Shown: piece after piece, positions 1,889-62,847 of the stretch
How the letters are laid out: every line of letters begins with the position of its first letter
Numbering within the stretch: the first letter of the stretch is position 1
Assembly (NCBI RefSeq): GCF_021462285.1
Contig: NZ_CP082787.1
Coordinates: forward strand, 1,798,001 to 1,862,000
Source of the DNA: Serratia entomophila
GTDB lineage: Bacteria; Pseudomonadota; Gammaproteobacteria; Enterobacterales; Enterobacteriaceae
Direction of reading: 5' to 3'
DNA: 64,000 nt
The notes under the pieces: generated by a model
Databases searched by the model: none
Seen by the model: the letters and a program-made list of their open reading frames with translations, nothing else
What the model was told of the DNA's origin: nothing
Translations under genes and position numbers: made by a program

Positions 1889-2054
1889 GTGCGCGTGGAT
1901 GATAAGACCTGCTTTTTTATCCGGCGAAAACCGGGTAGCTTAATGAAATAAACAGTTATTCGGCGCTCTGCGGGGCGAAACGGCCTTTCTGTTTGTATAC
2001 TGAAACCATAAGCAGTTTTTGATGTATTTTTTGTGAGCATACAGGGGGCAAGGG

Positions 2055-3887
2055 ATGTTGCTTAAAAATGGAAACTCAATACGGCGTCTGGCGCTGAGTT
2101 GCGCAATCGCATGCGGTCTTGCGTCGTCGTTACCCGCATGGGCAACCGTGCCGGCGTTTCCGGTGGCGTCATCCGGCATGTCCGTTGCGCAAAGTCGTTC
2201 AGAACTGCTGGCCGCGCTGCCGCGCGGCATGGCACCGCACTATCTTTCAACCTTGGCTCCTCTGTACGCGGCGAATCATATGCAGCCGATGTGGCAGGAT
2301 CGCGAGGCGGTGCAACAGTTTCAGCAGCAGCTGGCCGAGCTGGCGATGTCCGGCGTGCAGCCGCAGTTCACCCAATGGGTGAAAATGCTGACCGATCCGG
2401 CGATCAACGAAGTGGGGCGCGATATCGTGCTGTCCGACGCCATGCTCGGTTATCTGCAGTTCGTTTCCGCCATCGGCGCCAACGGCAACAGCTGGCTGTA
2501 CGGCAACATTCCCTACAAGCTTGGTTTGCCGCCCAACGCGGTGATTAACCAATGGCAGCTGGCGGTGCGTCAGGGCAAGACCCTGGGCTACGTCAATTCG
2601 CTGGCGCCGCAGCATCCGCAGTACGCCAAGATGCATCAAGCGCTGCGCGACATGCTGGCCAATAATCGGCCATGGCCGCAGATGGCCAACGGCCCGAGCC
2701 TGCGTCCCGGCCAGCTGAGCAATGATATTCCAGCCCTGCGCGAGATCCTCAAGCGGACCGGAATGCTGACCGATGCCGCACCGGAAGCGCAGCCGGAGCC
2801 GGCGGTGGTGCTGGCGACGCGCAATGAGCCCGATGACGGCGGCCTGTCGGTCGATGAAGAGAAAAACCGGGAAAGTCAGGTGGCGGTCAGCCCGTCGGCG
2901 GCGCCGGTGCAGGACATTGCCTCCGCGCCGAATTCCGGGTTGCTTACGCAGCCTGCCGCCAGCGCCGTGCCGAGCGATAATGTTTACACGCCGGATCTGG
3001 TCGAGGGCGTTAAGCGCTTCCAGCAATGGCAAGGGCTGAGCGCCGACGGTGTGATCGGCGCGCGCACCCGCGAGTGGTTGAACGTCTCGCCGAAGACCCG
3101 GGCTTCGCTGCTGGCGTTGAATATCCAACGCCTGCGCATCTTGCCGGGCCACGTCGGCACCGGCATTATGGTGAATATTCCCAACTACTCGCTGACCTAC
3201 TACCAGAACGGCAACGAAGTGCTCTCTTCGCGGGTGATCGTCGGGCGGCCGAGCCGCAAGACGCCGCTGATGAGCAGCGCGCTGAACAACGTGGTGGTCA
3301 ACCCGCCGTGGAACGTGCCGACTACGCTGGTACGTGAGGATATCGTGCCGAAGGCGATGCGTGACGGCAGCTACTTCCAGAAACACGGCTATACCGTGCT
3401 TGCCGGCTGGAGCAACGACGCTGAGGTGATCAACCCGGCGATGATCGACTGGAACATGGTGTCGGCCCGCAACTTCCCGTACCGCGTGCGCCAGGCGCCG
3501 GGCGCCACTAACTCGCTGGGGCGCTTCAAATTTAACATGCCGAGCTCGGACGCTATCTACTTGCACGATACGCCGAACCACAGCCTGTTCCAGAAAGACA
3601 TCCGCGCGCTCAGCTCCGGCTGTGTGCGGGTGAACAAGGCGTCTGATTTGGCAAATATGCTGCTGCAGGATGCCGGCTGGAATAACAGCCGCGTTTCTTC
3701 GACGCTGAAAGAGGGGAATACCACTTACGTGAATATTCGCCAGCGTATTCCGGTAAAATTGTATTATCTGACGGCCTGGGTCTCTGATGACGGCCAGCCA
3801 CAATTCCGTACAGATATTTACAATTATGATAATACGGTGAGATCGGGCGCACAAATTTTGGCTCAGGCCGAAAAATTAATGCAATAA
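2055..3887 (+). CDS. ldtD: L,D-transpeptidase LdtD (YcbB)
   Basis: This periplasmic murein enzyme forms 3-3 (mDAP-mDAP) cross-links and allows growth when D,D-transpeptidases are inhibited. The 610-residue product matches the E. coli length of 615. It has an N-terminal signal peptide with Arg-Arg at 11-12 and a hydrophobic core ending in LPAWA. A peptidoglycan-binding segment lies around residues 315-345 ([20 protein letters not shown]). The YkuD catalytic domain follows, with His504, His509 and the nucleophile Cys523 in LSSGCVRV. An acidic, Ala/Pro-rich linker around residues 245-310 separates the N-terminal part from the binding domain. The start is supported by AGGGGG seven bases upstream. 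mepK, which cuts such cross-links, lies next. Confidence 0.95.
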
Positions 3888-3933
3888 ATGCAGTAATTAT
3901 AAATAAATAACGGTCAGAATGTTTGGCTATACC

Positions 3934-3959
3934 ACAGGCCCTCGCATGCGGGGGCCTGT
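3934..3959. other. Stem-loop between ldtD and mepK
   Basis: An 8-bp perfect stem (ACAGGCCC with GGGCCTGT) closes an 10-base loop. No T-run follows on either strand, so it is not a classical terminator. It may stabilise or attenuate the mRNA between ldtD and mepK. Confidence 0.4.
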
Positions 3960-4067
3960 AAACCTAGGCGTATCGCGGGTTGACTCAGCATACGCAGGCG
4001 GTTATGGTTCGGACAGTGCGCTTTTTTGTGCATATATTTTGACATTCTTGCCGGGTTTAATAGAGTC

Positions 4068-4616
4068 ATGGACAAAATTGATCATCATCGCCGTAAATGG
4101 CTGGCGCTAGGCGGCGCAGCTATGGGCATAGCGCTGCTTCCAGGGCAGGCCTTTGCCAGTCTTTCCACTGCTCGTCCGCGTATTTTGGTGGTGAATAACC
4201 TGAATACCGGTGAATCACTTAAAGCCGAGTTTTTCGACGGCAAAGGTTACAATAAAGAAGAGCTGGTGCGGCTTAATCATTTATTCCGCGATTATCGCGC
4301 CAATAAAGTTAAATCGATCGATCCCCGCCTTTTTGATCATCTTTATCGCCTGCAGGGGCTGTTGGGCACCAACAAGCCGGTGCAGCTGGTTTCCGGTTAC
4401 CGCTCGCTGGACACCAATAACGAACTGCGCGCACACAGCCGCGGCGTGGCCAAGCACAGCTACCACACCAAAGGCCAGGCGATGGATTTCCATATTGAAG
4501 GCATCCAGCTGAGCAATATCCGCAAAGCGGCGTTAAAAATGCGCGCCGGTGGTGTAGGATATTACCCACGTAGCAACTTTGTACACATCGATACCGGTCC
4601 TGCACGGACCTGGTGA
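4068..4616 (+). CDS. mepK: Murein endopeptidase MepK (YcbK, DUF882/M15 family)
   Basis: This zinc-dependent periplasmic peptidase cleaves peptidoglycan cross-links; in E. coli MepK acts on both 3-3 and 4-3 bonds. The 182-residue product has a twin-arginine-type leader (HHRRKWLALGG at 6-16, cleavage near GQAFA), as E. coli YcbK does. The M15-like metal site is visible as SYHTKGQAMDFH (His and Asp ligands) and FVHIDTG near the C-terminus. The SGYRS motif of the family precedes it. The frame is open further upstream to 4026, but the leader only makes sense from 4068. It lies 180 bases after ldtD, whose 3-3 cross-links it would remodel. Confidence 0.92.
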   Translation: MDKIDHHRRKWLALGGAAMGIALLPGQAFASLSTARPRILVVNNLNTGESLKAEFFDGKGYNKEELVRLNHLFRDYRANKVKSIDPRLFDHLYRLQGLLGTNKPVQLVSGYRSLDTNNELRAHSRGVAKHSYHTKGQAMDFHIEGIQLSNIRKAALKMRAGGVGYYPRSNFVHIDTGPARTW

Positions 4617-4680
4617 TCGCGGTGCCCATAAGTGAATAGCGCCAGCCCGGCGGGTGTGGCGCTGTTGTCGTTGGAGCCTT

Positions 4681-5328
4681 ATGAAATACCACATTATTCC
4701 CGTTACTGCCTTTAGCCAGAACTGCAGCCTGATCTGGTGCGAGCATACCCAGCAGGCGGCGCTGGTCGATCCCGGCGGCGAAGCGGAAAAAATCAAAGCC
4801 GCCGTGGCCGAACGGGGCGTGACCGTCTCTCAAGTCTTACTGACGCACGGCCACCTCGACCACGTTGGCGCGGCGGCGGAGCTGGCCGAATATTATCAGG
4901 TGCCGATTTACGGGCCGGATAAGGAAGACGCCTTCTGGCTGGATGGCCTGCCGGCGCAAAGCCGGATGTTCGGTCTGGAAGAGTGCGCCCCCTTAACGCC
5001 AACCCGCTGGCTGGCGGAAGGCGACGAAGTGCAGGTTGGCGAGATGCGTTTCAAGGTGCTGCATTGCCCTGGCCATACGCCGGGTCATATCGTGTTTATC
5101 AACGCGCAGGCGCGCATGGCGCTGGTGGGCGATGTGCTGTTTAACGGCGGCGTTGGGCGCAGCGACTTCCCGCGCGGCGATCACCAGGCGCTGATCGACT
5201 CCATTCGCACTAAACTGTTGCCACAGGGGGATGACATGGCCTTTATTCCGGGCCATGGCCCGATGTCGACCTTTGGCCATGAACGCCAGACCAACCCGTT
5301 CCTGCGTGAGGAACCGCCGGTCTGGTGA
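4681..5328 (+). CDS. ycbL: Metallo-beta-lactamase-fold hydrolase YcbL (type II glyoxalase-like)
   Basis: This is a 215-residue cytoplasmic hydrolase of the glyoxalase II branch of the metallo-beta-lactamase fold; the E. coli orthologue (YcbL/GloC) has S-lactoylglutathione hydrolase activity. The metal-binding motif THGHLDHVG is at residues 57-65, with later ligands in [14 protein letters not shown] and FIPGHGP. The length equals the E. coli protein. Translation from 4681 begins [11 protein letters not shown] as in the family. The upstream in-frame ATG at 4654 would add nine unrelated residues. The gene is followed by a strong bidirectional hairpin and the convergent aspC. Confidence 0.93.
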
Positions 5329-5352
5329 GTCAGCTCTCCCGGCAGAAATAAC

Positions 5353-5378
5353 AAGGGGCGCACTGAGCGCCCCTTTTC
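5353..5378. terminator. Terminator between ycbL and aspC (convergent genes)
   Basis: A 9-bp stem AAGGGGCGC / GCGCCCCTT with a 5-base loop is followed by TTTCTTT on the plus strand. It sits between two convergent genes and mainly serves ycbL. Confidence 0.85.
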
Positions 5379-5394
5379 TTTAAATGCCGCTATC

Positions 5395-6585
5395 TTACAG
5401 CACGGCCACGATGGCTTCGCACAGCGGCGCCATGTTGTCCGGCGTCATGCCGGCAACGTTAACGCGGCCGGAGTTGACGGCGTAAACGCCAAACTCGTCA
5501 CGCAGGCGCAGCACCTGTTCTTTGGTCAGGCCGCTGAATGAGAACATGCCGTTCTGGTTGATGATGAAACCGAAGTCCTGCTGCGCGCCTTTCTCCTGCA
5601 GGGTATTCACAAACAGCTGACGCATGCGGTGGATGCGTTGGCGCATATCGGTCAGCTCTTGTTCCCACAGCGCGCGCAGCGCGTCGTTGCCGAGGATGGT
5701 GGCGACCACCGCCGCACCGTGGGACGGCGGGTTGGAGTAGTTGGCGCGAATTGCCGCTTTCACCTGGCTGAAGGCGCGATCGGCGGTTTCAGCGTCGGCG
5801 GCCACGATGGTGCAGGCGCCAACGCGTTCATTGTACAGGCCGAAGTTTTTCGAGTAGGAGCTGGCGACGATCAGTTCCTGATGCTTGGCGGCAAAAATGC
5901 GCAGGCCTTCGGCATCTTCTTCCAGGCCTTTGGCGAACCCCTGGTAGGCGAAGTCGAACAGCGGCAGCCAGCCGTTGGCTGCGGACAGCTCGGCCAGTTG
6001 GGCCCACTGTTCGGCGGTAGGATCGATGCCGGTCGGGTTATGGCAGCAGCCGTGGAACAGCACCACGTCGCCGGCCTGCGCCTGTTTCAGGCTATTGAGC
6101 AAGCCGTCGAAGTCCAACGCGTGGTTGGCGGCGTCATAGTAGGCGTATTCCAGCACTTCCAGGCCTACCGCGCCGAAGACGTTTTTATGATTCGGCCAGC
6201 TTGGGTTGCTGATCCAGATGCGCTTGGCGCTGGTTTGGTTGGCGATAAAGTCAGCCGCTACACGCAGGCCGCCGGTGCCACCGGGCGTTTGCGCGGTGCG
6301 CGCACGCTTGTCGGCGATGATCGGGCTTTGCTTGCCGAACAGCAGCTCTTGCGTGCAGCTGGCGAACGCCGGAATGCCTTCAATGCCGAGGTAGTTTTTG
6401 GTGGTCTCATTTTCCAGCAGATACTGCTCAGCCTTTTTCACGCTGGTCAGTACCGGGGTTTTACCGGTTTCGTCTTTATAAACGCCGATACCCAAATTGA
6501 TTTTGTCAGGGCGGGCGTCCGCGCGGAAAATGTCGGTCAGGCCCAGGATCGGGTCGGCAGGTGCAGCAGTGATTTTTTCAAACAT
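5395..6585 (-). CDS. aspC: Aspartate aminotransferase (PLP-dependent, class I)
   Basis: This enzyme interconverts aspartate plus 2-oxoglutarate with oxaloacetate plus glutamate. It also has aromatic aminotransferase activity in E. coli. The product is 396 residues, the same as E. coli AspC, if started at MFEKITAAP. Five upstream in-frame codons are ignored. The PLP lysine lies in [15 protein letters not shown] (about residue 246). The cofactor-phosphate and substrate-binding regions are recognisable ([30 protein letters not shown]). It follows ompF on the same strand, but an intervening terminator makes it a separate unit. Confidence 0.97.
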
Positions 6586-6764
6586 GTCAGGTGCTTCCAA
6601 ATCTCGGAGTTAAGCAGACAGAGGCATCAGGGTAGCGCCAGTTATGGGCTTTGCCAACCGTTTGCGACAAAAACACCGCGATGTTGTGAAGGGGGCAGGT
6701 TAGGCAGAAAAAATGGCGGGGAAGGGCAAATCGGCAGGATAAAAATTCACGGATGGCGCACAAA

Positions 6765-6793
6765 CAAAAACAGGGCCGAAGCCCTGTTTTTTT
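6765..6793 (-). terminator. Terminator after ompF (bidirectional)
   Basis: An AAAAACAGGGC / GCCCTGTTTTT stem with a CGAA loop gives U-runs on both strands. It lies between the ompF stop and the aspC promoter region. Confidence 0.85.
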
Positions 6794-6831
6794 AACTTAT
6801 CCGACGGTGAACCGCCGTTAAGCGCGACAAC

Positions 6832-7956
6832 TTAGAACTGGTAAACCAGGCCTACACCAACGATGTCGTCGGTAGCGGTGCCGGTGGCTTTGGTGAATTC
6901 GTTGTCGTCCAGCAGGTTGATTTTGTAATCAACGTAGGTGGACATGTTTTTGTTGAAGTAGTAGGTAGTACCAACAGAAACGTATTTAACCAGGTCCTGG
7001 TCAGAACCCACGCCTGGGACGTTCAGGTTCTTGCCTTTAGACTGCAGGTAAGACACTTCTGGACGCAGACCGAAGTCGAACTGGTACTGAGCGGTCACTT
7101 CGAAGTTCTGAGTTTTGCTGGCGAAGCCGCCACAGTTTTCGGTCGCATCACAGGTAGCCGTGAAGTTGCCGCCGCCGAATGGAGTCATGTTGCGGGTTTC
7201 GGCATACATGGCCGCCAGGTAAACGTTGTTGGCGTCGTATTTCGCGCCTACGGTCCAGGCATCAGCCTTGTCGCCGCGCTCGTTGGAACGCAGTTTTTGA
7301 TCGTCGGTACGGTTGGATGACGCGTATGCAGCACCGAAGCTTACGCCTTCGCCGATGTCATAAGTAGAGGAGATGCCCCAACCGTCGCCGTTTTGTTTCT
7401 TAACGTCACGACCGTCGTTCTGGTTTTTACCCTGGTATTGCAGGGCGAAGTTCAGACCGTCAACCAGACCGAAGAAGTTGTTGTTACGGTAGGTCGCAAC
7501 GCCGTTGGTACGGCCGGTCATGAAGTTGTCGGTGTAGGTGTAAGTGTCGCCACCGAACTCTGGCAGCATATCGGTCCAGCCTTCCACGTCGTACAGTACG
7601 CCGTAGTTACGGCCGTAGTCGAATGAGCCGTAGTCAGCGAATTTCAAACCAGCGAAGCCCAGACGAGTCTTGGTGCCTTCGGTGCCCTGAGATTCAGCGT
7701 GGTTAGCCTGAACGTTGTATTCCCACTGGCCGTAACCGGTCAGTTGGTCGGTAATCTGAGTTTCACCTTTGAAGCCGAAACGAACGTAGGTCTGATCGCC
7801 ATCATTGCCTTTGTCGTCTGAGAAGTAGTGCAGGCCGTCAACTTTACCGTACAGATCCAGCTTGTTGCCGTCTTTGTTATAGATCTCAGCTGCGTTTGCC
7901 GCACCAGCAGCCAACAGAGCCGGGATTACCACTGCAAGAATGTTGCGCTTCATCAT
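6832..7956 (-). CDS. ompF: General outer-membrane porin OmpF
   Basis: This trimeric 16-stranded beta-barrel lets small hydrophilic solutes, including many antibiotics, cross the outer membrane. The 374-residue precursor starts [10 protein letters not shown], has a signal peptide ending GAANA, and ends in the C-terminal Phe (VGLVYQF) typical of porins. The constriction-loop motif PEFGGDT and the strand [18 protein letters not shown] are clear. Position between aspC and asnS, and the OmpR-type upstream region, identify it as ompF rather than ompC. It is odd in having two Cys seven residues apart in a predicted surface loop (CDATENC), since enterobacterial porins normally lack Cys. Confidence 0.93.
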
Positions 7957-8116
7957 TATTAATTACCCTCATTGGTGTTATTCGGACACCTTTGCCACTG
8001 CCGCCAATAATTCTTTTGAACTATTGTTGATAGATTGGTGTCGTCCTGTGTCTGAACGCAGTGTTCCATTCGCAGGCGGGTTAATCTAGAACGAAAATGC
8101 TACGAATGTCCTAATG
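7957..8116 (-). promoter_or_regulatory. ompF core promoter and 5' leader
   Basis: This is the 160 bases between the OmpR-like sites and the ompF start. It holds the expected core promoter and a leader of roughly 100 bases, and nothing codes here. A ribosome-binding sequence GAGGG precedes the ATG by about 10 bases. The exact -10 could not be fixed by eye. Confidence 0.5.
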
Positions 8117-8158
8117 AGGTTTCAAAAAGAAAATATGTGTTACAAAATGTAATATTAA
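8117..8158 (-). promoter_or_regulatory. OmpR-binding region upstream of ompF (F1-F3 like)
   Basis: Read on the minus strand this stretch contains TACATTTTGTAACACATA followed by TTTTCTTTTTGAAACC. It closely resembles the remembered E. coli ompF region bound by OmpR. The following GTAGCATTTTCG also resembles the E. coli core promoter. Osmoregulation by EnvZ/OmpR is inferred. Confidence 0.65.
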
Positions 8159-8183
8159 GGGAACTTTGTGACGCAGGTCAATA

Positions 8184-8218
8184 ATAAAAAATGCGAAAGG
8201 CCAGCAGAGCTGGCCTTT
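8184..8218 (-). terminator. Terminator after asnS
   Basis: A perfect 10-bp stem AAAGGCCAGC / GCTGGCCTTT with an AGA loop is followed on the minus strand by CGCATTTTTTATT. It separates asnS from the ompF control region. Confidence 0.85.
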
Positions 8219-8260
8219 GTTTTGTAACAAAATCGTATGGAAACTGTTTAAACCTATTAA

Positions 8261-9661
8261 TTAGAAGCTTGCATTGCGTGGCGTTCGCGGGAACGGGATC
8301 ACGTCACGCACGTTTTGCACACCGGTGACATAGGCGATTAAACGTTCAAAGCCCAAACCGAAACCGGCGTGAGGCACGGTGCCGTAACGGCGCAGGTCAC
8401 GATACCACCAGTAGTCTTCTTTATTCAGGCCCATGGCTTCCAAACGCTGATCCAACACGTCCAGGCGTTCTTCACGCTGTGCGCCGCCGATGATTTCACC
8501 GATACCCGGCGCCAGCACGTCCATCGCCGCGACGGTTTTGCCGTCGTCGTTCATGCGCATATAGAAGGCTTTGATGTCTTTCGGGTAGTTTTTCACCACT
8601 ACCGGCGCTTTGAAGTGTTTCTCCGCCAGATAGCGCTCGTGCTCGGAGGACAGATCGATGCCCCAGGAAACCGGGTTTTCGAACTTCTGGCCGGAGGCGA
8701 TCAGAATTTCCACCGCTTCGGTGTAGTCAACCTGGGCAAAGTCGGAGGAGACAAAACGCTTCAGGCGATCGATGGCGTCTTTATCTACGCGTTCGGCGAA
8801 GAACTGCATGTCATCCATGCGCTCGTTCAGCACCGCCTGGAACACATACTTCAGCATTTTCTCCGCCAGCTCAGCAATGTCTGCCAGCGTGGCGAAGGCC
8901 ACTTCCGGTTCGATCATCCAGAACTCCGCCAGATGGCGGCTGGTGTTGGAGTTTTCGGCGCGGAAGGTCGGGCCAAAGGTGTAGATTTTTGACAGCGCGC
9001 AGGCGTAGGTTTCGCCGTTCAGCTGGCCGGATACGGTGAGGAACGCCTCTTTACCGAAGAAGTCTTCGCTGAAGTCGACGGCGCCTTTATCGGTGCGCGG
9101 CAGGTTTTCCAGATCCAGCGTGGAAACGCGGAACATTTCGCCGGCGCCTTCGGTATCAGAGGCGGTGATCAGCGGGGTGGATACCCAGAAGAAGCCGTTC
9201 TCGTGATAGAAGCGGTGAATGGCCTGCGCCAGCGTATGGCGCACGCGCGCCACGGCGCCGATCAGGTTGGTGCGCGGACGCAGGTGCGCCACTTCACGCA
9301 GGTACTCGATGCTGTGGCGCTTGGCCGCCATCGGGTAGGTGTCCGGATCGTCAACCCAGCCGACCACCTTGATGGCGGTTGCCTGCAGTTCGTAACTTTG
9401 GCCTTCGCCCGGGGAGGCGACAACCTTGCCGGTCACTTCAACCGAGCAGCCGGTGGTCAGGTGCAGCACTTCATCCTGATAATTCGGCAGAGAATTATTA
9501 ACGACGGCCTGTAACGGATCAAAGCAGGAACCGTCATAGACGGCCAGGAAGGAGATACCAGCTTTAGAATCTCTCCGGGTACGTACCCAGCCGCGCACGG
9601 TGACTTCACTGTCAACCGCAGCACGACCTTGCAGTACGTCGACTACAGGCACTACGCTCAT
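8261..9661 (-). CDS. asnS: Asparaginyl-tRNA synthetase
   Basis: This class II enzyme charges tRNA-Asn with asparagine. The 466-residue product has the usual length. An N-terminal OB-fold anticodon-binding domain ([16 protein letters not shown] region) precedes the class II catalytic core. The core shows motif 2 [19 protein letters not shown] and motif 3 FGLGFERLI. No partial duplication or frameshift is visible. It is transcribed in the same direction as pncB upstream and ompF downstream, with a terminator on each side. Confidence 0.97.
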
Positions 9662-9802
9662 AGATTTCTCTCTTTATATTTGGTTTAGAAATAGCTTACA
9701 ACCCAAGAATATGGGGATGCTTGCTATGTTACTTGCCGCGGTGCAGAGCACAAGCAGAAATCGCCAGATTGGCGCAACATTTCTCGGGGGCGGGCCGATT
9801 GA

Positions 9803-9842
9803 ACAAAGAAAAAGCCGGGCGATGTTCGCACCGGCTTTCTTT
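9803..9842 (-). terminator. Terminator after pncB
   Basis: An AAAGCCGG / CCGGCTTT stem with a 12-base loop is flanked by A/T runs. On the minus strand it ends CCGGCTTTTTCTTTG, 16 bases after the pncB stop. Confidence 0.75.
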
Positions 9843-9857
9843 ATATATAAGGAAGCG

Positions 9858-11063
9858 TCAGCTGGCTTTTTTCACCAGCGGCAGATCGAAGGCTTTACGC
9901 AGGGCTTTCACGAAGGCCTGATCCTGGCAGATGGTTTTGCCCGGGCTGTCGGAAAGCTTGGCGACCGGTTTACCCTTGCACTCCACCAGTTTGATCACGA
10001 TATTCAGCGGCTTGACGCCCGGAATATCACAGGTCAGGCGGGTGCCGATGCCGAACACCAGGTTGATGCGCTGGTAGAAATGGCGGTACAGCGCCAGCGC
10101 CTTGTCCAGATCCAGGTTATCCGAGAACACCAGGGTTTTGCTCATTGGGTCGATGCCCAGTTTTTGATAGTGGGCGATGGCTTTCTCGCCCCACTCGAAC
10201 GGATCGCCCGAGTCGTGGCGCAGCCCCTGATAGCGTTGGGCGAACTGCGGGCTAAAATCACGCAGGAAGGCATCCATGGTGATGCAGTCGGTCAACGCGA
10301 TGCCGAGCTGGTTCGGGTATTCGTCCAGCCAGGCCTGCAGCGCCGCGCGCTGGCTGTTGGCCAACACCGGGCTAATTTGCTGGTGGGCCTGAAACCACTC
10401 GTGCGCCTGGGTGCCGACCGGCGCCAGATCCAATTGGTAGGCCAGATCGTAATTGCTGGTGCCGACCAGATAAGGGAACTCCGCCTTCAGAGTGCTGACG
10501 ATCGCCTGCTGCACGCCCTGCGAGAAGCGGCGGCGGGTGCCGAAGTCCATCAGCTTGAAGCGCGAGATATCCAGATCGCCGGCCAGGGCCCTGAACTGTT
10601 CCAGTTTGCTGCGCAGGTGGGCGACCGCCTGCGCCGGGGTGACCTCCGGCGAGCGGTGGCGGTGCACCACCTCGCTAATCACCGCCAGCAGCGGAACTTC
10701 CCACATGATCACCTCGCGCCACGGCCCGGCGATGCGGATCTGCAGCCTGCCGTCGCGGTTGTCGATGTTCACCTGCTGCGGATCGTAGCGAAATTCCCGC
10801 AGCCAGCTCAGGTAGTCCTGGCGGAAGAAGGGCAGCCCGGAGAGATAATTGAACTCAGCATCGGTCAGCGCCAACTGGCTCATCAGCGCGACCTGCGCGC
10901 GGATCTCATCGGCATATTCGCCCAGCAGTTCATCGCCGCGGCAACGGAATTCCGCCGCAACGCTGATTGCGGGATAGCGATGGAACACTGCTTGCTGCAT
11001 ATGAAGCTTATAGGCGTCAGTATCAAGCAGTGATGTCAAAATCGGGGAGGCGTATTGAGTCAT
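9858..11063 (-). CDS. pncB: Nicotinate phosphoribosyltransferase
   Basis: This enzyme converts nicotinate and PRPP to nicotinate mononucleotide with ATP hydrolysis, the entry step of the NAD salvage (Preiss-Handler) pathway. The 401-residue product matches the family length. Recognisable segments are [20 protein letters not shown] at the N-terminus, DFGTRRRFS, and [14 protein letters not shown], the latter forming part of the phosphoribosyl-binding site. It lies between asnS and a diguanylate cyclase gene. I saw no clear NadR box in the upstream 250 bases. Confidence 0.96.
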
Positions 11064-55863: not shown

Positions 55864-55998
55864 TGAGCGATTTTACTTTTTATAATACAAAATGAGTTGT
55901 TACTTATACGAAAAATCTTAACATGATAAATGATGGCGAATATTATTACCTGCATAATATTATGTGTAATCCGGATGTCTATGTTGAGGATGAATTGT
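55864..55998 (+). other. AT-rich gap before regulator gene
   Basis: This 135-base AT-rich spacer may carry its own promoter for the two following regulator genes. No clear terminator hairpin follows the adhesin gene, so read-through from the fimbrial operon is also possible. Confidence 0.35.
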
Positions 55999-56523
55999 AT
56001 GACGGAACAAATCCAGATCGGCGTTAAGGTTGAGAAATCGCTAAAAGATGAGGTTGACGTTATTTTGCGCGGTTTGGACATCAAGCCAACGACGGCGATA
56101 AATGGGCTTTACCAATATATTTTACAGCATAGGGAGCTTCCTTTTGTTATATCGACCAGCGTAAAAACGCCGAAGGATATTGCGGGTGAACTGTTTAAAA
56201 GCATATTTTCATTACGCAGCACGCTGAGCGTTTTTTTAGATAAAATAAACCTTAAGCAAGGAGTGAGAAGGGGAGAAGTGCTGATCGTCAGAGACATTGT
56301 TCACGATTTTATTCTTAGTTTTCGCCAGGGCAGTCAATACATTAACTCATCCCAGTTTGAACACCACGTGATATGGGGCGACGCGGTGCAGGCTGCCGAA
56401 GGCGCCTACGATATTTTGTTGAGAAATACCACCTTCACTGAAGATGACATGATGCAGCTCGACGATAAACACATTCGTTTGCTCTCCGATCTGCTGCTCT
56501 TATTGTACGGCGCGGTGAGATAG
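55999..56523 (+). CDS. RelB/DinJ-like ribbon-helix-helix protein, solitary, with extra C-terminal domain
   Basis: The 174-residue product begins with a segment (residues about 4-50) that aligns by eye with RelB/DinJ antitoxins: a short beta-strand (QIGVKVEK), SLKDEVDVILRGLDIKPTTA, a second helix and the hallmark ending RELPFVI. The remaining 120 residues are helical and unrecognised (FHVI-type region ending LLSDLLLLLYGAVR). No RelE/YafQ-like toxin gene is adjacent. The next gene is a LuxR-type regulator. I infer a DNA-binding regulator of the fimbrial genes, not a toxin-antitoxin module. GAGG lies about 9 bases before the ATG. Base composition is AT-richer than the backbone. Confidence 0.65.
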   Translation: MTEQIQIGVKVEKSLKDEVDVILRGLDIKPTTAINGLYQYILQHRELPFVISTSVKTPKDIAGELFKSIFSLRSTLSVFLDKINLKQGVRRGEVLIVRDIVHDFILSFRQGSQYINSSQFEHHVIWGDAVQAAEGAYDILLRNTTFTEDDMMQLDDKHIRLLSDLLLLLYGAVR

Positions 56524-56604
56524 TTTCATTAACACTGGTGGATGGATGTCCGATGCAACAATGGACATCCTTATCGATATTTCCTCAAGCCAAAGGAATG
56601 GGCT

Positions 56605-57105
56605 ATGCGCGTGGTGATTTTCACTGACGATTATTATTTGCTTTATGGCGCGAAAGCGCTCTTGAGAACGCTTGGCAGTCTTAAGGTCCTTGGCGTTTAT
56701 ACGCCGTCCGGCTATATCAATTCATCGGTGGAGTATAACGCGGATCTGATTGTCGTCTCTTTTTCATCCATGTTTCGGGTGATGAATTTGCTGTCAATCA
56801 TGTTTGAGGACACGAATAAGGTGATGGTGCTGGCCGATGTGAAAACGGCGCGATTGCTCAATTTTAACTGTGTAAAGAAAAATATTGGCCGGCAGGCATT
56901 TATTGCCGAAATGAGAAGGCTGATTGCCTGCAACCGTGGGCGGAATCTGTCCCCCAGAGAGCTGTTAATTTTGGCCTTGCTGCTGAAAGGCGCGCCGAAC
57001 ACCGGTATTGCAAGGATGCTGGGCATTTCGGAAAAAACCGTCAGCCAGCACAAGGTGAACGCCATGAGAAAGCTGGACGTGAAACATGTTTGCCAATTAA
57101 TTTGA
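56605..57105 (+). CDS. LuxR-type transcriptional regulator with atypical receiver-like domain
   Basis: The 166-residue product has a C-terminal LuxR/FixJ helix-turn-helix (LSPRELLILALLLKGAPNTG, then MLGISEKTVSQHKVNAMRKL). The N-terminal 100 residues resemble a response-regulator receiver (VVIFTDDYYLLYGAKALL). The expected phospho-acceptor Asp at the end of strand 3 is absent (ADLIVVSFSSMF), so phosphorylation is doubtful. AAGGA lies about 7 bases upstream of ATG 56605. By position it probably regulates the fimbrial operon. Similar orphan regulators (FimZ-like) control fimbriae in other enterobacteria. Confidence 0.78.
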   Translation: MRVVIFTDDYYLLYGAKALLRTLGSLKVLGVYTPSGYINSSVEYNADLIVVSFSSMFRVMNLLSIMFEDTNKVMVLADVKTARLLNFNCVKKNIGRQAFIAEMRRLIACNRGRNLSPRELLILALLLKGAPNTGIARMLGISEKTVSQHKVNAMRKLDVKHVCQLI

Positions 57106-57120
57106 GGCGATAGCCCACAA

Positions 57121-57140
57121 TAAACCCGCCGCTGCGGGTT
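57121..57140. terminator. Shared terminator between luxR-type gene and soxR
   Basis: A 7-bp stem AACCCGC / GCGGGTT with a CGCT loop overlaps the soxR stop codon. On the minus strand it is followed by TATTG. Confidence 0.65.
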
Positions 57141-57600
57141 AAGGGCGATGCAGGATTTGCGCGCCGCAGCCTTGTTCACCCAACACATCGCCGGGGTTAT
57201 ACAAAGGACAATCCGTGAGCGACAGGCAGCCACAGCCAATGCAGCCATCCAAATGGTCGCGCAGCAGTTTCAGCCGCTGGATCCTTTCATCCAAATCTTC
57301 ACGCCAGGTTAAAGACAGTTCTCTCCACTGGGCGGCGGTCAGCTTGCTGCCGATGGGAAAACGGCCGAGTGCGGCGCGGATCTCCTCCAACGGGATACCG
57401 GTGCGCTGCGCTATCTTGATGACGGCGATATAGCGTAAAACCACCGCAGGGTAGCGCCGCTGGTTGCCTTCGTTGCGCACCGCCTCAATCAACCCTTTGC
57501 TTTCATAAAAGTGCAATGTGGATACCGCCACGCCGCTGCGTTTCGCCACTTCGCCGACGGTCATCATCCGTTCGGGATCTTTCGGTTCATTTCTTGCCAT
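57139..57600 (-). CDS. soxR: Redox-sensing MerR-family regulator SoxR
   Basis: This 2Fe-2S regulator is activated by redox-cycling compounds and turns on promoters with long spacers. The 153-residue product has the MerR helix-turn-helix ([39 protein letters not shown]). The cluster motif [12 protein letters not shown] has the four Cys. The end matches E. coli SoxR ([16 protein letters not shown]) but carries an extra Cys. Start at 57600 gives proper spacing to GGGTGA; ATG 57606 is too close. It is divergent from an RND pump operon rather than soxS. Confidence 0.94.
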
Positions 57601-57616
57601 TTTCATTCACCCGCTA

Positions 57617-57647
57617 TTGACCTCAAGTTAACTTGAGGTTTTATAGT
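57617..57647 (+). promoter_or_regulatory. SoxR operator within 19-bp-spacer promoter of the RND operon
   Basis: The -35 is TTGACC (57617-57622) and the -10 is TATAGT (57642-57647), 19 bases apart. The palindrome CCTCAAGTTAACTTGAGG (57621-57638) lies between them and is identical to the E. coli soxS SoxR site as remembered. Promoter direction is towards the pump genes. Confidence 0.93.
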
Positions 57648-57746
57648 TCAGGCGGCCGGGTTTGGCAACCGGTATAAAAACGACCTCTGTTCCCGCCCTG
57701 GTGGGATGAAAGATGAATTTGGCCGCGAAATCAGGAAGAAAGCGTT

Positions 57747-57836
57747 ATGAAGTACATGACCGAAAAAAAGGCGAAAGCGCCACTTGGCGCGCATCTGGCG
57801 CCGTTTACCGGCACCGCCGGCGGGGGCGCACAATGA
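57747..57836 (+). CDS. Short leader reading frame overlapping the efflux adaptor gene
   Basis: The frame starts at ATG 57747, has AGGAAG about 9 bases upstream, encodes 29 residues (MKYMTEKKAKAPLGAHLAPF at the start, Lys/Ala/Gly-rich), and ends in TGA. The TGA overlaps the ATG of the adaptor gene (ATGA). The adaptor itself has only a weak ribosome-binding site, so translational coupling is plausible. Whether the peptide has a function is unknown. Confidence 0.45.
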   Translation: MKYMTEKKAKAPLGAHLAPFTGTAGGGAQ

Positions 57837-58924
57837 AACGCGCAATCATTGTTGTGCTGCTGCTGGCGGCGATGGCGATAGCCGTTCTGGCGATGCGCTC
57901 CACCGGGCAGCAGGATAAAGGCGCAGCCTATCCGCCGGTGAAAGTGGCGTTGGCGCCGGCGCAGCGCGAGCAACGCGCGCGCAGCTTTGCCGGCGTGGGC
58001 GCGCTGGAGGCTGCGCGGCAGGTAGACGTCGCGGCGGAAGTTGGCGGGCGGGTGACGCGGATCCTGTTCGAGTCCGGGCAGCAGGTTAAGGAAGGGCAAC
58101 TGTTGGTGCAGCTGAATGATGCGGTTGAGCAGGCGGAACTGCTGCGCCTGCAGGCGCAGCTGCGCAACGCCGAGCTGCTGCACGCCAGAATGCGCAAGCT
58201 GATGAATCTCAACGCCACGGCGCAACAGCAACTGGATGACGCCCAGGCTCAGCGTGATATGGCGCTGGGCGACGTGCGGCAGATGCAGGCGAAAATCGCG
58301 CAAAAAGCCATTCGCGCGCCTTTTTCCGGCGCAATAGGCATTCGCCGCGTGCATGAGGGGCAATACCTCAACGCCGCCGAGACGGTGGTGAACCTGGTGG
58401 ATGCCGGCACGCTGCGCGTCAACTTCTCGCTGGACGAACAAACCAGCGCCGGGCTGGCCCTGGGGCAGGCGGTGGCGGTTCAGGTCGCCGCTTACCCGGA
58501 TCGCGCCTTTCCCGCCGCGATTACCGCAATCGACCCGCTGATCGACAAATCGCGCACCGTGCAGGTGCAGGCGACGTTGGCCAACCCGGACGGCGCGCTG
58601 AAGGCCGGCATGTACGCCGGTATCCGCGTCACCCAGCGCCAGAGCGTGTCGGTGTTGACGGTACCGGAAACGGCGCTGACCTACACCGCCTATGGCGATA
58701 CCGTTTTCCTGGCGCAGCAGAATGGCAAAGGCATGACGGTAAAACGCGTTTCGGTCACCGTGGGTGAACGCAACGACGGGCGAGTCGAGATCCTCCGCGG
58801 GCTGCGCGAGGGCGATCGCGTGGTGACCTCCGGCCAGCTCAAGCTCAGCGACGGCATGGCGGCCGAACCGGTGGCGCAGGATACCCTGAGCGCCGCACCC
58901 GCCGGTTCATCGGGAGATAAATGA
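57833..58924 (+). CDS. RND efflux periplasmic adaptor (MexH-like membrane fusion protein)
   Basis: The 363-residue product joins an RND pump to an outer-membrane channel. It has an N-terminal membrane anchor (about 3-21, no lipobox) and the first half of the lipoyl/barrel-sandwich domain (RQVDVAAEVGGRVTRILFES). A short alpha-hairpin (about 95-145) and the second lipoyl half (IRAPFSGAIGIRRVHEGQYL) follow. Beta-barrel and membrane-proximal domains complete it. It overlaps the leader frame and the RND gene by ATGA. Direct SoxR control is likely. No outer-membrane channel gene follows, so TolC is the probable partner. Confidence 0.92.
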   Translation: MKRAIIVVLLLAAMAIAVLAMRSTGQQDKGAAYPPVKVALAPAQREQRARSFAGVGALEAARQVDVAAEVGGRVTRILFESGQQVKEGQLLVQLNDAVEQAELLRLQAQLRNAELLHARMRKLMNLNATAQQQLDDAQAQRDMALGDVRQMQAKIAQKAIRAPFSGAIGIRRVHEGQYLNAAETVVNLVDAGTLRVNFSLDEQTSAGLALGQAVAVQVAAYPDRAFPAAITAIDPLIDKSRTVQVQATLANPDGALKAGMYAGIRVTQRQSVSVLTVPETALTYTAYGDTVFLAQQNGKGMTVKRVSVTVGERNDGRVEILRGLREGDRVVTSGQLKLSDGMAAEPVAQDTLSAAPAGSSGDK

Positions 58925-61900
58925 TGAAGTTCACCGATCTTTTTGTGCGCCGGCCGGTGCTGGCGCTGGTGGTCAGCACGTTGATCCTGCTGTTCGGCTG
59001 CCTGGCGCTCAGCAAGCTGCCGATCCGCCAATACCCGCTGCTGGAAAGCTCTACCATCAGCGTGACCACAGAATATCCCGGCGCTTCATCGGAGCTGATG
59101 CAAGGGTTTGTGACGCAGCCTATCGCTCAGTCGGTCTCGTCCATCGAGGGTATCGACTATCTGTCCTCCTCGTCGGTGCAGGGGCGCAGCGTGGTGACGG
59201 TGCGCATGGCGCTGAACCGCGACTCCAACCAGGCGCTGACCGAGGTGATGGCCAAGGTCAACCAGGTGCGCTACAAGCTGCCGGAGCAGGCTTACGACCC
59301 GGTGATCGAACGCTCCTCCGGCGAGGCCACGGCGGTGGCCTACGTCGGCTTTTCCAGCGATACGCTGCCGACGCCGGCGTTAAGCGAGTACCTGACGCGG
59401 GTGGTGGAACCGATGTTCACCACCATCGACGGCGTGGCCAAGGTCGAGGTGTTCGGCGGGCAGAAGATGGCGATGCGCCTGTGGCTGGACAGCGATCGCC
59501 TTGCGGGGCGCGGCCTGACCGCCGCCGACGTGGCCGACGCGGTGCGGCGCAATAACTACCAGGCGGCGCCGGGCAAGGTGAAGGGGCTGTATGTGGTATC
59601 CAACGTGCGGGTGAATACCGATCTCACCAGCGTGGAGGAGTTTCGCGATTTGGTGGTGCGCAACGACGGCAACGGCCTGGTGCGCCTGAAGGACGTGGGC
59701 ACGGTGGAGCTGGGAGCGGCGGCCACCGAAACCAGCGCGCTGATGGACGGGCAGCCGGCGGTATTCCTCGGCATATTCCCTACGCCCACCGGCAATCCGC
59801 TGGTGATCGTCGACGGCATTAAAAAGTTGATGCCGGCGATCAACAAGATGCAGCCGCCCGGGGTCAAAATGGCGCTGGCGTTTGAGACCGCGCGTTTTAT
59901 TCAGGCGTCGATCGACGAGGTGGTGCATACCCTGCTGGAAGCATTGGCGATAGTGGTGGCGGTGATCTACCTGTGCCTGGGATCGCTGCGCACCGTTTTG
60001 ATCCCAGTGGTGACCATTCCGCTTTCCATCTTGGGGGCGGCGGGATTGATGCTGGCCTTCGGCTTCAGCGTCAATTTGCTGACGCTGCTGGCGATGGTGT
60101 TGGCGATCGGACTGGTGGTGGATGATGCCATTGTGGTGGTGGAGAACGTGCATCGCCATATTGAAGAGGGCAAGTCGCCGCTGGTGGCGGCGATGATCGG
60201 CGCGCGCGAAGTGGCGGGGCCGGTGATCGCCATGACGCTGACGTTGGCGGCGGTGTATGCGCCGATCGGCCTGATGGGCGGGTTGACCGGCGCGCTGTTC
60301 CGCGAGTTCGCTCTGACGCTGGCCGGCGCGGTGGTGGTTTCCGGCGTGGTGGCGCTGACGCTGTCGCCGGTAATGAGCTCCTTCCTGTTGCCGGCCAAAC
60401 AGACCGAGGGGCGGGTGGCGCGCGCCGCCGAGTGGTTCTTCGGCGGGTTGACGCGGCGCTATGCGCGGGCGCTGGATTTCTCTCTGCATCACCGTTGGCT
60501 GACGGGCGGGCTGGCGCTGTTGGTGTTGGTCAGCCTGCCGCTGCTGTATCAACTGCCGCAGCGCGAATTGGCGCCGACCGAAGATCAGGCGATAGTGCTT
60601 ACCGCCATCAAGGCGCCGCAGCACGCCAACCTGAACTATGTGGAACGCTTCGCCTACAAGCTGGATCAGGTTTATGCACGGTTACCGGAAACCGAGAACC
60701 GCTGGATCATCAACGGCAGCGACGGCACCGCATCCAGCATCGGCGGTATCAACCTGACGCTGTGGGAAGCGCGTCACCGTTCGGCGACGGCGGTGCAGGC
60801 CGATCTGCAGCAGGCGGTGAATGACGTAGAGGGCACCAGCATTTTCGCCTTCCAGCTGCCGGCCTTGCCGGGCTCGACCGGCGGCCTGCCGGTGCAGATG
60901 GTGTTGCGCAGCCCGCAGGAATACCCGCTGCTGTACCGCACCATGGAGGAGCTGAAACAAAGTGCGCGCAACAGCGGCCTGTTTATGGTGGTGGACAGCG
61001 ATCTGGATTACAACAATCCGGTGGCGGAAGTGCGCATCGATCGGGCCAAGGCCAGCAGCCTGGGGATCCGCATGAGCGATATCGGTGAATCGCTGGCGGT
61101 ATTGGTGGGAGAGAACTACCTCAACCGCTTCGGCATGGACGGCCGCGCTTACGATGTGATCCCGCAGAGCCTGCGCGAACAGCGGCTGACGCCGGAGGCG
61201 CTGGCGCGGCAGTACGTTCGCACCCAGGACAATACATTGGTGCCGCTGTCTACCCTGGTGCAGGTGTCGGTCCGGGTAGAACCGAACAAGCTGACCCAGT
61301 TTAATCAGCAGAACGCCGCCACGCTGCAAGCGATCCCGGCGCCGGGTGTCTCCATGGGGGACGCGGTGGCCTTCCTCGAACGCCAGGCCGATGCGCTGCC
61401 GGCCGGTTTCAGCTACGACTGGCAGGGTGATTCGCGCCAGTATACCCAGGAGGGCAATGCGCTGGCGTTCGCCTTTATGGCCGCGCTGGTGATCATCTAT
61501 CTGGTGCTGGCTGCGCAGTACGAGAGCCTGAGGGATCCGCTGATTATCCTGATTACCGTACCGCTGTCGATCTGCGGCGCGCTGCTGCCGCTGGCGCTGG
61601 GTTACGCCACCATGAACATCTATACCCAGGTGGGATTGGTGACGCTGATTGGCCTGATCAGCAAGCACGGCATTTTGATGGTCGAATTCGCCAATGAGCT
61701 GCAGATGCATCAGGGGCTGCCGCGACGCGCCGCCATTCTGCAGGCGGCGCAGATCCGTCTGCGCCCGGTGCTGATGACTACGGCGGCGATGGTGTTCGGT
61801 CTGATACCGCTGCTGTTCGCCAGCGGCGCCGGCGCCAACAGCCGTTTTGGTCTGGGGCTGGTGATTGTATCCGGCATGTTGGTGGGGACGCTGTTCACGC

Positions 61901-61998
61901 TGTTCGTGCTGCCGACGGTCTACACGCTGCTGGCGCGCGATCATGCGGTGGCGTCGCCGCGCGAGCTGGCGTTGGCGGCAGGGGATCGCACGCCGTAA
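58921..61998 (+). CDS. RND multidrug efflux transporter (MexI-like)
   Basis: This proton-driven trimeric exporter of the HAE1 family has 1025 residues. Its N-terminus MKFTDLFVRRPVLALVVSTL and much of the sequence resemble Pseudomonas MexI as remembered. Twelve membrane helices are expected. TM4 carries the proton-relay Asp pair in AIGLVVDDAIVVVENVHRHI. The two large periplasmic loops and the repeat half (LIGLISKHGILMVEFANELQ) are complete. It is coupled to the adaptor (ATGA) and ends at a strong terminator. Substrates are likely redox-active or planar toxic compounds, inferred from SoxR control and the MexGHI parallel. Confidence 0.94.
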   Translation: MMKFTDLFVRRPVLALVVSTLILLFGCLALSKLPIRQYPLLESSTISVTTEYPGASSELMQGFVTQPIAQSVSSIEGIDYLSSSSVQGRSVVTVRMALNRDSNQALTEVMAKVNQVRYKLPEQAYDPVIERSSGEATAVAYVGFSSDTLPTPALSEYLTRVVEPMFTTIDGVAKVEVFGGQKMAMRLWLDSDRLAGRGLTAADVADAVRRNNYQAAPGKVKGLYVVSNVRVNTDLTSVEEFRDLVVRNDGNGLVRLKDVGTVELGAAATETSALMDGQPAVFLGIFPTPTGNPLVIVDGIKKLMPAINKMQPPGVKMALAFETARFIQASIDEVVHTLLEALAIVVAVIYLCLGSLRTVLIPVVTIPLSILGAAGLMLAFGFSVNLLTLLAMVLAIGLVVDDAIVVVENVHRHIEEGKSPLVAAMIGAREVAGPVIAMTLTLAAVYAPIGLMGGLTGALFREFALTLAGAVVVSGVVALTLSPVMSSFLLPAKQTEGRVARAAEWFFGGLTRRYARALDFSLHHRWLTGGLALLVLVSLPLLYQLPQRELAPTEDQAIVLTAIKAPQHANLNYVERFAYKLDQVYARLPETENRWIINGSDGTASSIGGINLTLWEARHRSATAVQADLQQAVNDVEGTSIFAFQLPALPGSTGGLPVQMVLRSPQEYPLLYRTMEELKQSARNSGLFMVVDSDLDYNNPVAEVRIDRAKASSLGIRMSDIGESLAVLVGENYLNRFGMDGRAYDVIPQSLREQRLTPEALARQYVRTQDNTLVPLSTLVQVSVRVEPNKLTQFNQQNAATLQAIPAPGVSMGDAVAFLERQADALPAGFSYDWQGDSRQYTQEGNALAFAFMAALVIIYLVLAAQYESLRDPLIILITVPLSICGALLPLALGYATMNIYTQVGLVTLIGLISKHGILMVEFANELQMHQGLPRRAAILQAAQIRLRPVLMTTAAMVFGLIPLLFASGAGANSRFGLGLVIVSGMLVGTLFTLFVLPTVYTLLARDHAVASPRELALAAGDRTP

Positions 61999-62017
61999 TT
62001 TGCTTTGCCGCAGAGAT

Positions 62018-62044
62018 AAAAAAACCCGCCTCGGCGGGTTTTTG
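62018..62044. terminator. Bidirectional terminator between RND operon and nuclease gene
   Basis: An AAACCCGC / GCGGGTTT stem with a CTCG loop has A and T runs on either side, giving U-tails in both directions. Confidence 0.9.
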
Positions 62045-62049
62045 TTGGG

Positions 62050-62847
62050 TTAATTCTTGCAGCCCATCAGCTCAGGCAGCACGCCTGGCTTGCTTTTCAG
62101 CGCCGCCTGCACGTCTTCCGGCAGACCGGCCCAGACGATCAGCCCGGTGCGCTTTTCAATCTCGCTCACCGTCACGCGATACTGGCAGAAGTCGGCACCC
62201 TTCGGCGTGTCCTGATCGAACAGGAAGGCCGCGTAGTGGTTCACCGCCGGGCTGTTATTGATGAAAATAATCTTCCAGTAGGCGCTGGGGATGGTATGCG
62301 GCTTTTGGGTGCCCGGCAGCTTGCCCATATCGCGTTCGAACAGCGGCCCGGTGACGGTATACACCGAGCTGACGTCGGCGCGGTCAATCAGCTTGCGTTC
62401 CTGATCTTCCAGCCGCGCCCAGGAGCCCTGGTTCAGATCGGACTTCTGCGGCGTGATGTTGGACAGGTAATTCAGCGACTCCCAGTCGGAAACGCCCGCC
62501 AGCGAGGCCAGCGGCGCCTGGTGGCCGCGGTCGACCTTCAGCGCCGCATTGGCGCCGGTGTAGTCGGCAGGCGCCAGGGTATCGGCGGGATTGAGCGCCG
62601 GATCGGTTTTCCAGTTGCGGTTTTTGCCGCTGGCCGGCGTCTCCTTGGTGATGTGATAGGCCACCCAGTTGGCGAACTTGGTGGTGCTGTTATTGTTCAA
62701 CGTATAGGCATGGCGAACGATGGACACATTGCTGCTGCCGCCGGTTGGGCAGCCTACGGCGCAGTTGTCGATAGATTCGAGCGTTTCGGCCGACGCCTGT
62801 GCGGCAAACAGCAGGGCGGCCAGGGCCAACATCTTGTTAAAGCGCAT
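62050..62847 (-). CDS. nucA: Secreted non-specific DNA/RNA endonuclease (Serratia nuclease)
   Basis: This extracellular magnesium-dependent nuclease degrades all forms of DNA and RNA. The 265-residue precursor has a signal peptide MRFNKMLALAALLFAAQASA. The catalytic motif DRGHQAPLAS gives His109 (His89 of the mature protein), and the metal-binding Asn lies in SDLNQGSWARLEDQE. Cys29/Cys33 and a C-terminal Cys pair match the two disulfides of the S. marcescens enzyme. Compared with that sequence as remembered there are about a dozen conservative changes. Start at 62847 is preferred, because GAGG is too close to the ATG at 62853. A LexA box lies 25 bases upstream. Confidence 0.96.
   Translation of the reverse strand: MRFNKMLALAALLFAAQASAETLESIDNCAVGCPTGGSSNVSIVRHAYTLNNNSTTKFANWVAYHITKETPASGKNRNWKTDPALNPADTLAPADYTGANAALKVDRGHQAPLASLAGVSDWESLNYLSNITPQKSDLNQGSWARLEDQERKLIDRADVSSVYTVTGPLFERDMGKLPGTQKPHTIPSAYWKIIFINNSPAVNHYAAFLFDQDTPKGADFCQYRVTVSEIEKRTGLIVWAGLPEDVQAALKSKPGVLPELMGCKN

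Follow-up and report, generated by a model that had tools for sequence, protein, structure and literature searches.

According to the general description, SoxR of enteric bacteria serves only to turn on soxS, while in other bacteria transporters are under its direct control (PMC4146615; this and the following sources are cited for parts of their text). In Pseudomonas aeruginosa, pyocyanin and 5-methyl-phenazine-1-carboxylate prompt SoxR to activate mexGHI-opmD, whose pump exports the latter compound (PMC8466533, PMC9272787). Sandner-Miranda et al. reported that genomic islands of Serratia marcescens carry MexGHI, put its homology to P. aeruginosa at 82% and suggested horizontal transfer (PMC5958200), and MexGHI orthologues occur sporadically in Providencia (PMC8487129). 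Here we analyzed a 64,000-nucleotide stretch of Serratia entomophila (contig NZ_CP082787.1, positions 1,798,001 to 1,862,000, hereafter the window), in which soxR is divergent from the genes of a MexHI-type resistance-nodulation-division (RND) pump. In this arrangement, called the module below, SoxR most likely switches on the pump directly, unlike the route via a second regulator that is taken in Escherichia coli. The features of the locus are as follows.

57139..57606, minus strand: soxR, 155-amino-acid MerR-family redox sensor with a C-terminal [2Fe-2S] motif
57617..57622, plus strand: -35 element TTGACC, kept in all 23 distinct relatives compared that have a promoter of the module type
57620..57639, no strand: predicted SoxR box, a 20-bp perfect palindrome with an 18-bp core at 57621-57638
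57642..57647, plus strand: -10 element TATAGT, separated from the -35 element by 19 bp; predicted transcript start at about 57654
57747..57836, plus strand: 29-codon open reading frame occupying the mexG position, preceded by AGGAAGAAA, the ribosome-binding sequence used by mexG in relatives; no Pfam match
57833..58924, plus strand: mexH-type periplasmic adaptor gene, 363 amino acids, RND_mfp model 250 bits (cut-off 94.9)
58921..61998, plus strand: mexI-type RND permease gene, 1025 amino acids, RND_permease_2 model 1332 bits (cut-off 1250)
62020..62043, no strand: terminator-like hairpin at the operon end, between the permease gene and a convergent nuclease gene

The initial annotation had placed a perfect 18-bp SoxR palindrome between soxR and a divergent adaptor-RND operon, inside a -35/-10 pair whose 19-bp spacer promoter points to the pump. 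All of these elements were found, and the perfection of the palindrome extends to 20 bp. The core (CCTCAAGTTAACTTGAGG, 57621-57638) has no mismatch, and shuffled windows average 0.01 matches at up to three mismatches. A scan of the 5.15 Mb genome returned this box as the only place at up to three mismatches; as a reversed control pattern likewise returned one place, the exact match is informative beyond chance but the count of one is not. The pattern TTGACN-N19-TATANT occurs on either strand of the window only at the pump promoter, and a scan for promoters with ordinary 16-18 bp spacing found none ahead of mexH. The promoter is conserved as TTGACC-N19-TATAGT across 24 distinct module-type promoters, including those of the window and of P. 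aeruginosa PA7, with a single TATGGT (in genome G206), whereas all ten soxS promoters compared read TTTACC-N19-TATACT. Three additional rows of this comparison were duplicates of genomes in the count and were left out of it. At the level of sequence, the direct wiring of SoxR to the pump is thus backed by the box, the 19-bp spacing, the divergent orientation and the single occurrence of the box.

With the soxRS system of E. coli the locus shares a soxR gene divergent from its target, an identical 18-bp palindrome and the 19-bp spacer. It differs in having a pump rather than soxS as target, in its -35 and -10 hexamers, and in a SoxR that lies outside the soxRS clade. The likeness to mexGHI-opmD of P. 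aeruginosa comprises the permease (82% identity to PA7), a box within the same promoter sequence ahead of the operon, and apparent direct control without soxS. Unlike in P. aeruginosa, soxR is adjacent and divergent here, whereas none lies near the pump in a 17 kb stretch of PA7, and both mexG and opmD are absent from the window. Moreover, P. aeruginosa SoxR is credited with three target units in the cited part of PMC8466533, compared with one box at up to three mismatches here. The islands of S. marcescens carry the same pump in the same genus; the main text of PMC5958200 does not mention SoxR, and linkage to soxR, the promoter and loss of mexG were not found in the part cited. The Providencia report concerns another enterobacterial genus, and its text names SoxR once, in a reference title on another matter (PMC8487129). 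Our literature search returned no description of a linkage between soxR and mexGHI in enterobacteria, an earlier notice in Dietrich 2008, the most pertinent survey, being possible. Each part of the system was already known; what appears to be new is their linkage in one cassette and the fact that this cassette and soxS exclude each other.

The soxR product scores 212.6 bits against the SoxR equivalog model TIGR01950 (cut-off 116.9) and combines a MerR-type DNA-binding domain with the C-terminal iron-sulfur motif CX2CXCX5C. The sole SoxR returned by a PDB search was that of E. coli (2zhg/2zhh), and the window SoxR was aligned to 2zhg. In the Serratia relatives soxR starts at 57600, six bases further in than the start annotated in the window. 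The listed start of the mexH reading frame, 57713, is mechanical, as homologues align from 57833 (S. marcescens 106R from residue 1). The adaptor is 82-84% identical to those of the S. marcescens group and 65% identical to that of PA7. Adaptor and permease are of the MexH and MexI types found in MexGHI-OpmD, although the permease stays below the cut-off of the stricter equivalog model PRK09579 (1230 versus 1763). The initial annotation had suggested searching the complete genome for a second soxR and for soxS. Only one SoxR is present, the next MerR-type matches reaching no more than 36.6 bits, and no SoxS match was obtained in this genome at E<=1e-38. The best two matches to E. coli SoxS (56% and 57%) are nearer to E. 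coli Rob (72% and 70%), and we classify them by this similarity as Rob-type; no soxS orthologue was found. Where soxS would be divergent from soxR in an enteric soxRS system, mexH stands in the window.

In a SoxR tree of 46 rows, a 100/100 branch separates the 14 sampled soxRS rows from all module rows, those of genus g13 and the non-enteric rows. The window SoxR is accordingly outside the soxRS clade. The module SoxRs do not form one clade; those of Morganella, of genera g82 and g90 and of g13 group together (94/96). The residue after CxxCxCLS is Leu in all 23 module or g13 SoxRs, compared with Arg (19), Met (3) or His (1) in 23 soxRS SoxRs; 65 further database proteins have Leu (63) or Met (2). 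We take this residue to be the start of the RSD stretch, which was reportedly linked to viologen response by Sheplock et al. in 2013. Paraquat, the first inducer named in the initial annotation, may act weakly on a SoxR of this non-enteric type.

The distribution of the module was followed in 30 Serratia-group genomes (SoxR at E<=1e-25, permease at E<=1e-300). SoxR is present in 11 of them and the permease in the same 11; at these thresholds the other 19, three of which are reduced (1.5-2.5 Mb), have neither. All 11, which include S. marcescens 106R, S. marcescens MSU97 and S. bockelmannii S3, have a single place that matches the box at up to three mismatches; it separates soxR from the pump genes, of which the adaptor gene comes next. 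SoxR matches flagged with a stop in two genomes (G009, G364) proved open on reading. A different SoxR, 70-72% identical, was observed in Serratia sp. D1N4 and S. aquatilis (P0065, P0105), where it groups with SoxRs of the Achromobacter/Pusillimonas type.

The enteric context noted in the initial annotation is real but not peculiar to this genome, as the module also occurs in ten other Serratia-group species, g82, g90, Morganella morganii and Proteus mirabilis. Among 392 genomes of the family, SoxR was detected in 167 and a SoxS match (E<=1e-38) in 149, all of these among the 167. One of the matches (G227, 59%) lies on a contig other than that of soxR and was counted as a paralogue; conversely, one of the 18 genomes without a match (G141) has a 58% SoxS adjoining soxR. 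After both adjustments, 18 of the 167 SoxR-bearing genomes lack soxS, and 14 of these 18 carry soxR beside the pump: five of the Serratia group, four each of g82 and g90, and G306, which has the same permease sequence as M. morganii FAM24679. The remaining four are three genomes of g13 and G085, in which the SoxR match contains a stop and adjoins a transporter-like reading frame. soxS adjoins soxR in all 22 soxS-bearing genomes whose soxR surroundings were read. Four family genomes (G102, G211, G308, G369) have permeases of 56-58% identity with no SoxR box near the pump and were not counted as modules. Among the g13 genomes, soxR adjoins a methyltransferase gene with a SoxR box of its own in G188 and is at a contig end in G041, and a stretch of G341 (G341:C194, 4277-5610) holds soxR, an exact box, an intact mexG and then a short mexH fragment, that is, a decayed cassette.

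Across 369 genomes of the class, a search at E<=1e-300 gave 43 permeases from genomes other than this one, and their identity did not exceed 53%. Close relatives are therefore patchy, as expected of horizontal transfer. E. coli genomes contained no near match of 57000-62000 (megablast only), and phage records no match at 60% or more. The top plasmid records comprised Xenorhabdus and Azospirillum plasmids at 75-76% and three others of chromosome size; the stretches of the Xenorhabdus and Azospirillum plasmids showed no box at up to four mismatches and no soxR match. Likewise, the stretches of the Herbaspirillum and P. psychrophila relatives had no box at up to four mismatches, which is evidence against a SoxR box as a general feature of such pumps.

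The window permease is 93% identical to that of S. marcescens and 81% to that of Herbaspirillum. In a permease tree of 25 rows it shares a 100/100 group with S. marcescens and G206, Herbaspirillum being next (81/98) and PA7 close. The absence of MexG-like and channel genes described in the initial annotation holds for this locus, but mexG was lost here, since relatives keep it in place. In S. marcescens 106R, a DoxX-family mexG lies between box and adaptor. Altogether 6 of 20 module genomes have mexG (3 of 11 in the Serratia group, 3 of 4 in g82, none of 4 in g90 and not G306), and its presence at the same place in PA7, G206 and G341 makes loss in several lineages the simplest reading. In mexG-less leaders of the S. 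marcescens group, the mexG ribosome-binding sequence directly precedes mexH in a leader alignment made by eye. The TGA of the 29-codon reading frame overlaps the ATG of mexH. Its origin as a mexG remnant was considered and not supported: in local alignments to four mexG-bearing leaders, its score was reached by 111, 36, 151 and 289 of 300 shuffles. No OpmD-type channel gene lies downstream of the pump; a Herbaspirillum channel query matched none of 19 enterobacterial stretches, the window included, and 2 of 22 sequences overall, PA7 (59%) and Herbaspirillum itself, with no match in the P. psychrophila stretch. We infer from this that the channel is encoded elsewhere, with TolC as the likely candidate.

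Taken together, the locus can very probably be read as an efflux switch for redox-active compounds that was acquired by horizontal transfer and in which SoxR apparently has a single target. Reduced SoxR would occupy the one palindrome that separates soxR from mexH, and the promoter would be poorly used on account of the 19 bp between its -35 and -10 elements. Redox-active small molecules would oxidise the [2Fe-2S] cluster; oxidised SoxR would then distort the DNA such that RNA polymerase could use the long-spacer promoter and produce mexHI mRNA. MexH and MexI would assemble with the outer-membrane channel and expel redox-active or other toxic compounds, redox-active metabolites being a plausible substrate. 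The cassette, soxR included, would have reached the S. marcescens group from a source other than the soxRS lineage, and mexG would at first have been part of it. Some observations weigh against this interpretation. The SoxR tree leaves the grouping of the window SoxR with those of S. marcescens undecided, and the pattern of presence may reflect loss elsewhere rather than gain in this group. "Single target" may be too strong for a search covering up to three mismatches, and the RNA leader shows nothing special in its structure (z -0.02). Rfam gave no matches in 56900-62100.

We lean slightly towards a broader view, in which SoxR of Enterobacterales belongs to either of two cassettes that differ in ancestry and exclude each other: soxR-soxS, acting in two steps and globally, and soxR-mex(G)HI, acting in one step and on efflux only. 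The latter would spread horizontally and shed mexG, and sometimes the pump alone would be captured by a resident SoxR of the soxRS type, as in G206. If true, soxS could no longer be regarded as the only gene that SoxR targets directly in enterics, as the current rule has it. Judging from the locus and its relatives, direct wiring without soxS appears to be used by a number of enterobacteria, clinically relevant ones among them. In such bacteria, the expected response to redox-active drugs and metabolites is an increase in one pump instead of a global defence, and findings made on SoxRS in E. coli should not be transferred to them.

G206 carries mexGHI with an 86% identical permease and a one-mismatch box before mexG, without an adjacent soxR (G206:C1 stretch, 1906-6640), and has soxRS elsewhere in its genome. 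On the simplest reading, its pump would have arrived without its soxR and be read by the resident soxRS-type SoxR. Having both wirings in one chromosome, G206 makes a direct comparison possible.

Three other explanations of the S. entomophila locus were weighed. The cassette could serve as self-protection for one metabolite of the host's own rather than general defence, by analogy with MexGHI and 5-methyl-phenazine-1-carboxylate in P. aeruginosa. This is suggested by a methyltransferase just downstream of opmD in PA7, which we take to be PhzM-like, and by a PF00891-type methyltransferase after mexHI on a Xenorhabdus plasmid, whose 67% identical counterpart in genome G188 has its own SoxR box beside soxR. 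We regard it as unlikely here, given that the window holds no such methyltransferase match at E<=1e-4 and that the flanks of the cassette are a chaperone-usher fimbrial cluster on one side and a nuclease on the other. More doubtful still is a pump driven mainly by another signal (MarA/Rob-type regulators or constitutive expression), with SoxR fine-tuning or repressing it. The genome does encode Rob (72% identical to its E. coli counterpart) along with several further members of the MarA family, and MerR-family activators also repress, but the conserved element is the 19-bp-spacer promoter and no promoter-like site of ordinary spacing precedes mexH. Finally, vertical inheritance with a partner swap, in which an enteric soxR lost soxS and captured the promoter of a neighbouring pump, would account for a genuine SoxR in an enteric bacterium with soxS missing, but is rejected as highly improbable on the 100/100 branch, the differing promoter hexamers and the Leu residue, to which the lack of SoxR in 19 of 30 genus genomes adds. 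The wording "instead of soxS" in the initial annotation therefore stands insofar as no adjacent or orthologous soxS was found, but not in the sense of an enteric soxR that exchanged its partner, given the tree, the residue and the 19 genomes with neither SoxR nor this pump.

Regarding the neighbourhood of the cassette, RelB/DinJ-like and LuxR-type regulator genes (55930-57105) follow the fimbrial cluster in the window and are kept beside soxR in S. marcescens 106R; both flanks, these genes and the nuclease, are common to the two.

The methyltransferase-linked loci are of interest in their own right. In G188 (G188:C97 stretch, 6609-8250), soxR lies beside a PF00891 O-methyltransferase gene, upstream of which a one-mismatch SoxR box is embedded in TTGACC-N19-TATAGT; the enzyme is a candidate for SoxR-controlled tailoring in a soxS-less enterobacterium. 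The plasmid of Xenorhabdus sp. TH1 (NZ_CP147735.1, 11.7 kb stretch, 4863-10162) carries a mexHI relative followed by the convergent methyltransferase gene. Considered with PA7, these loci hint at a link between the pump and biosynthesis.

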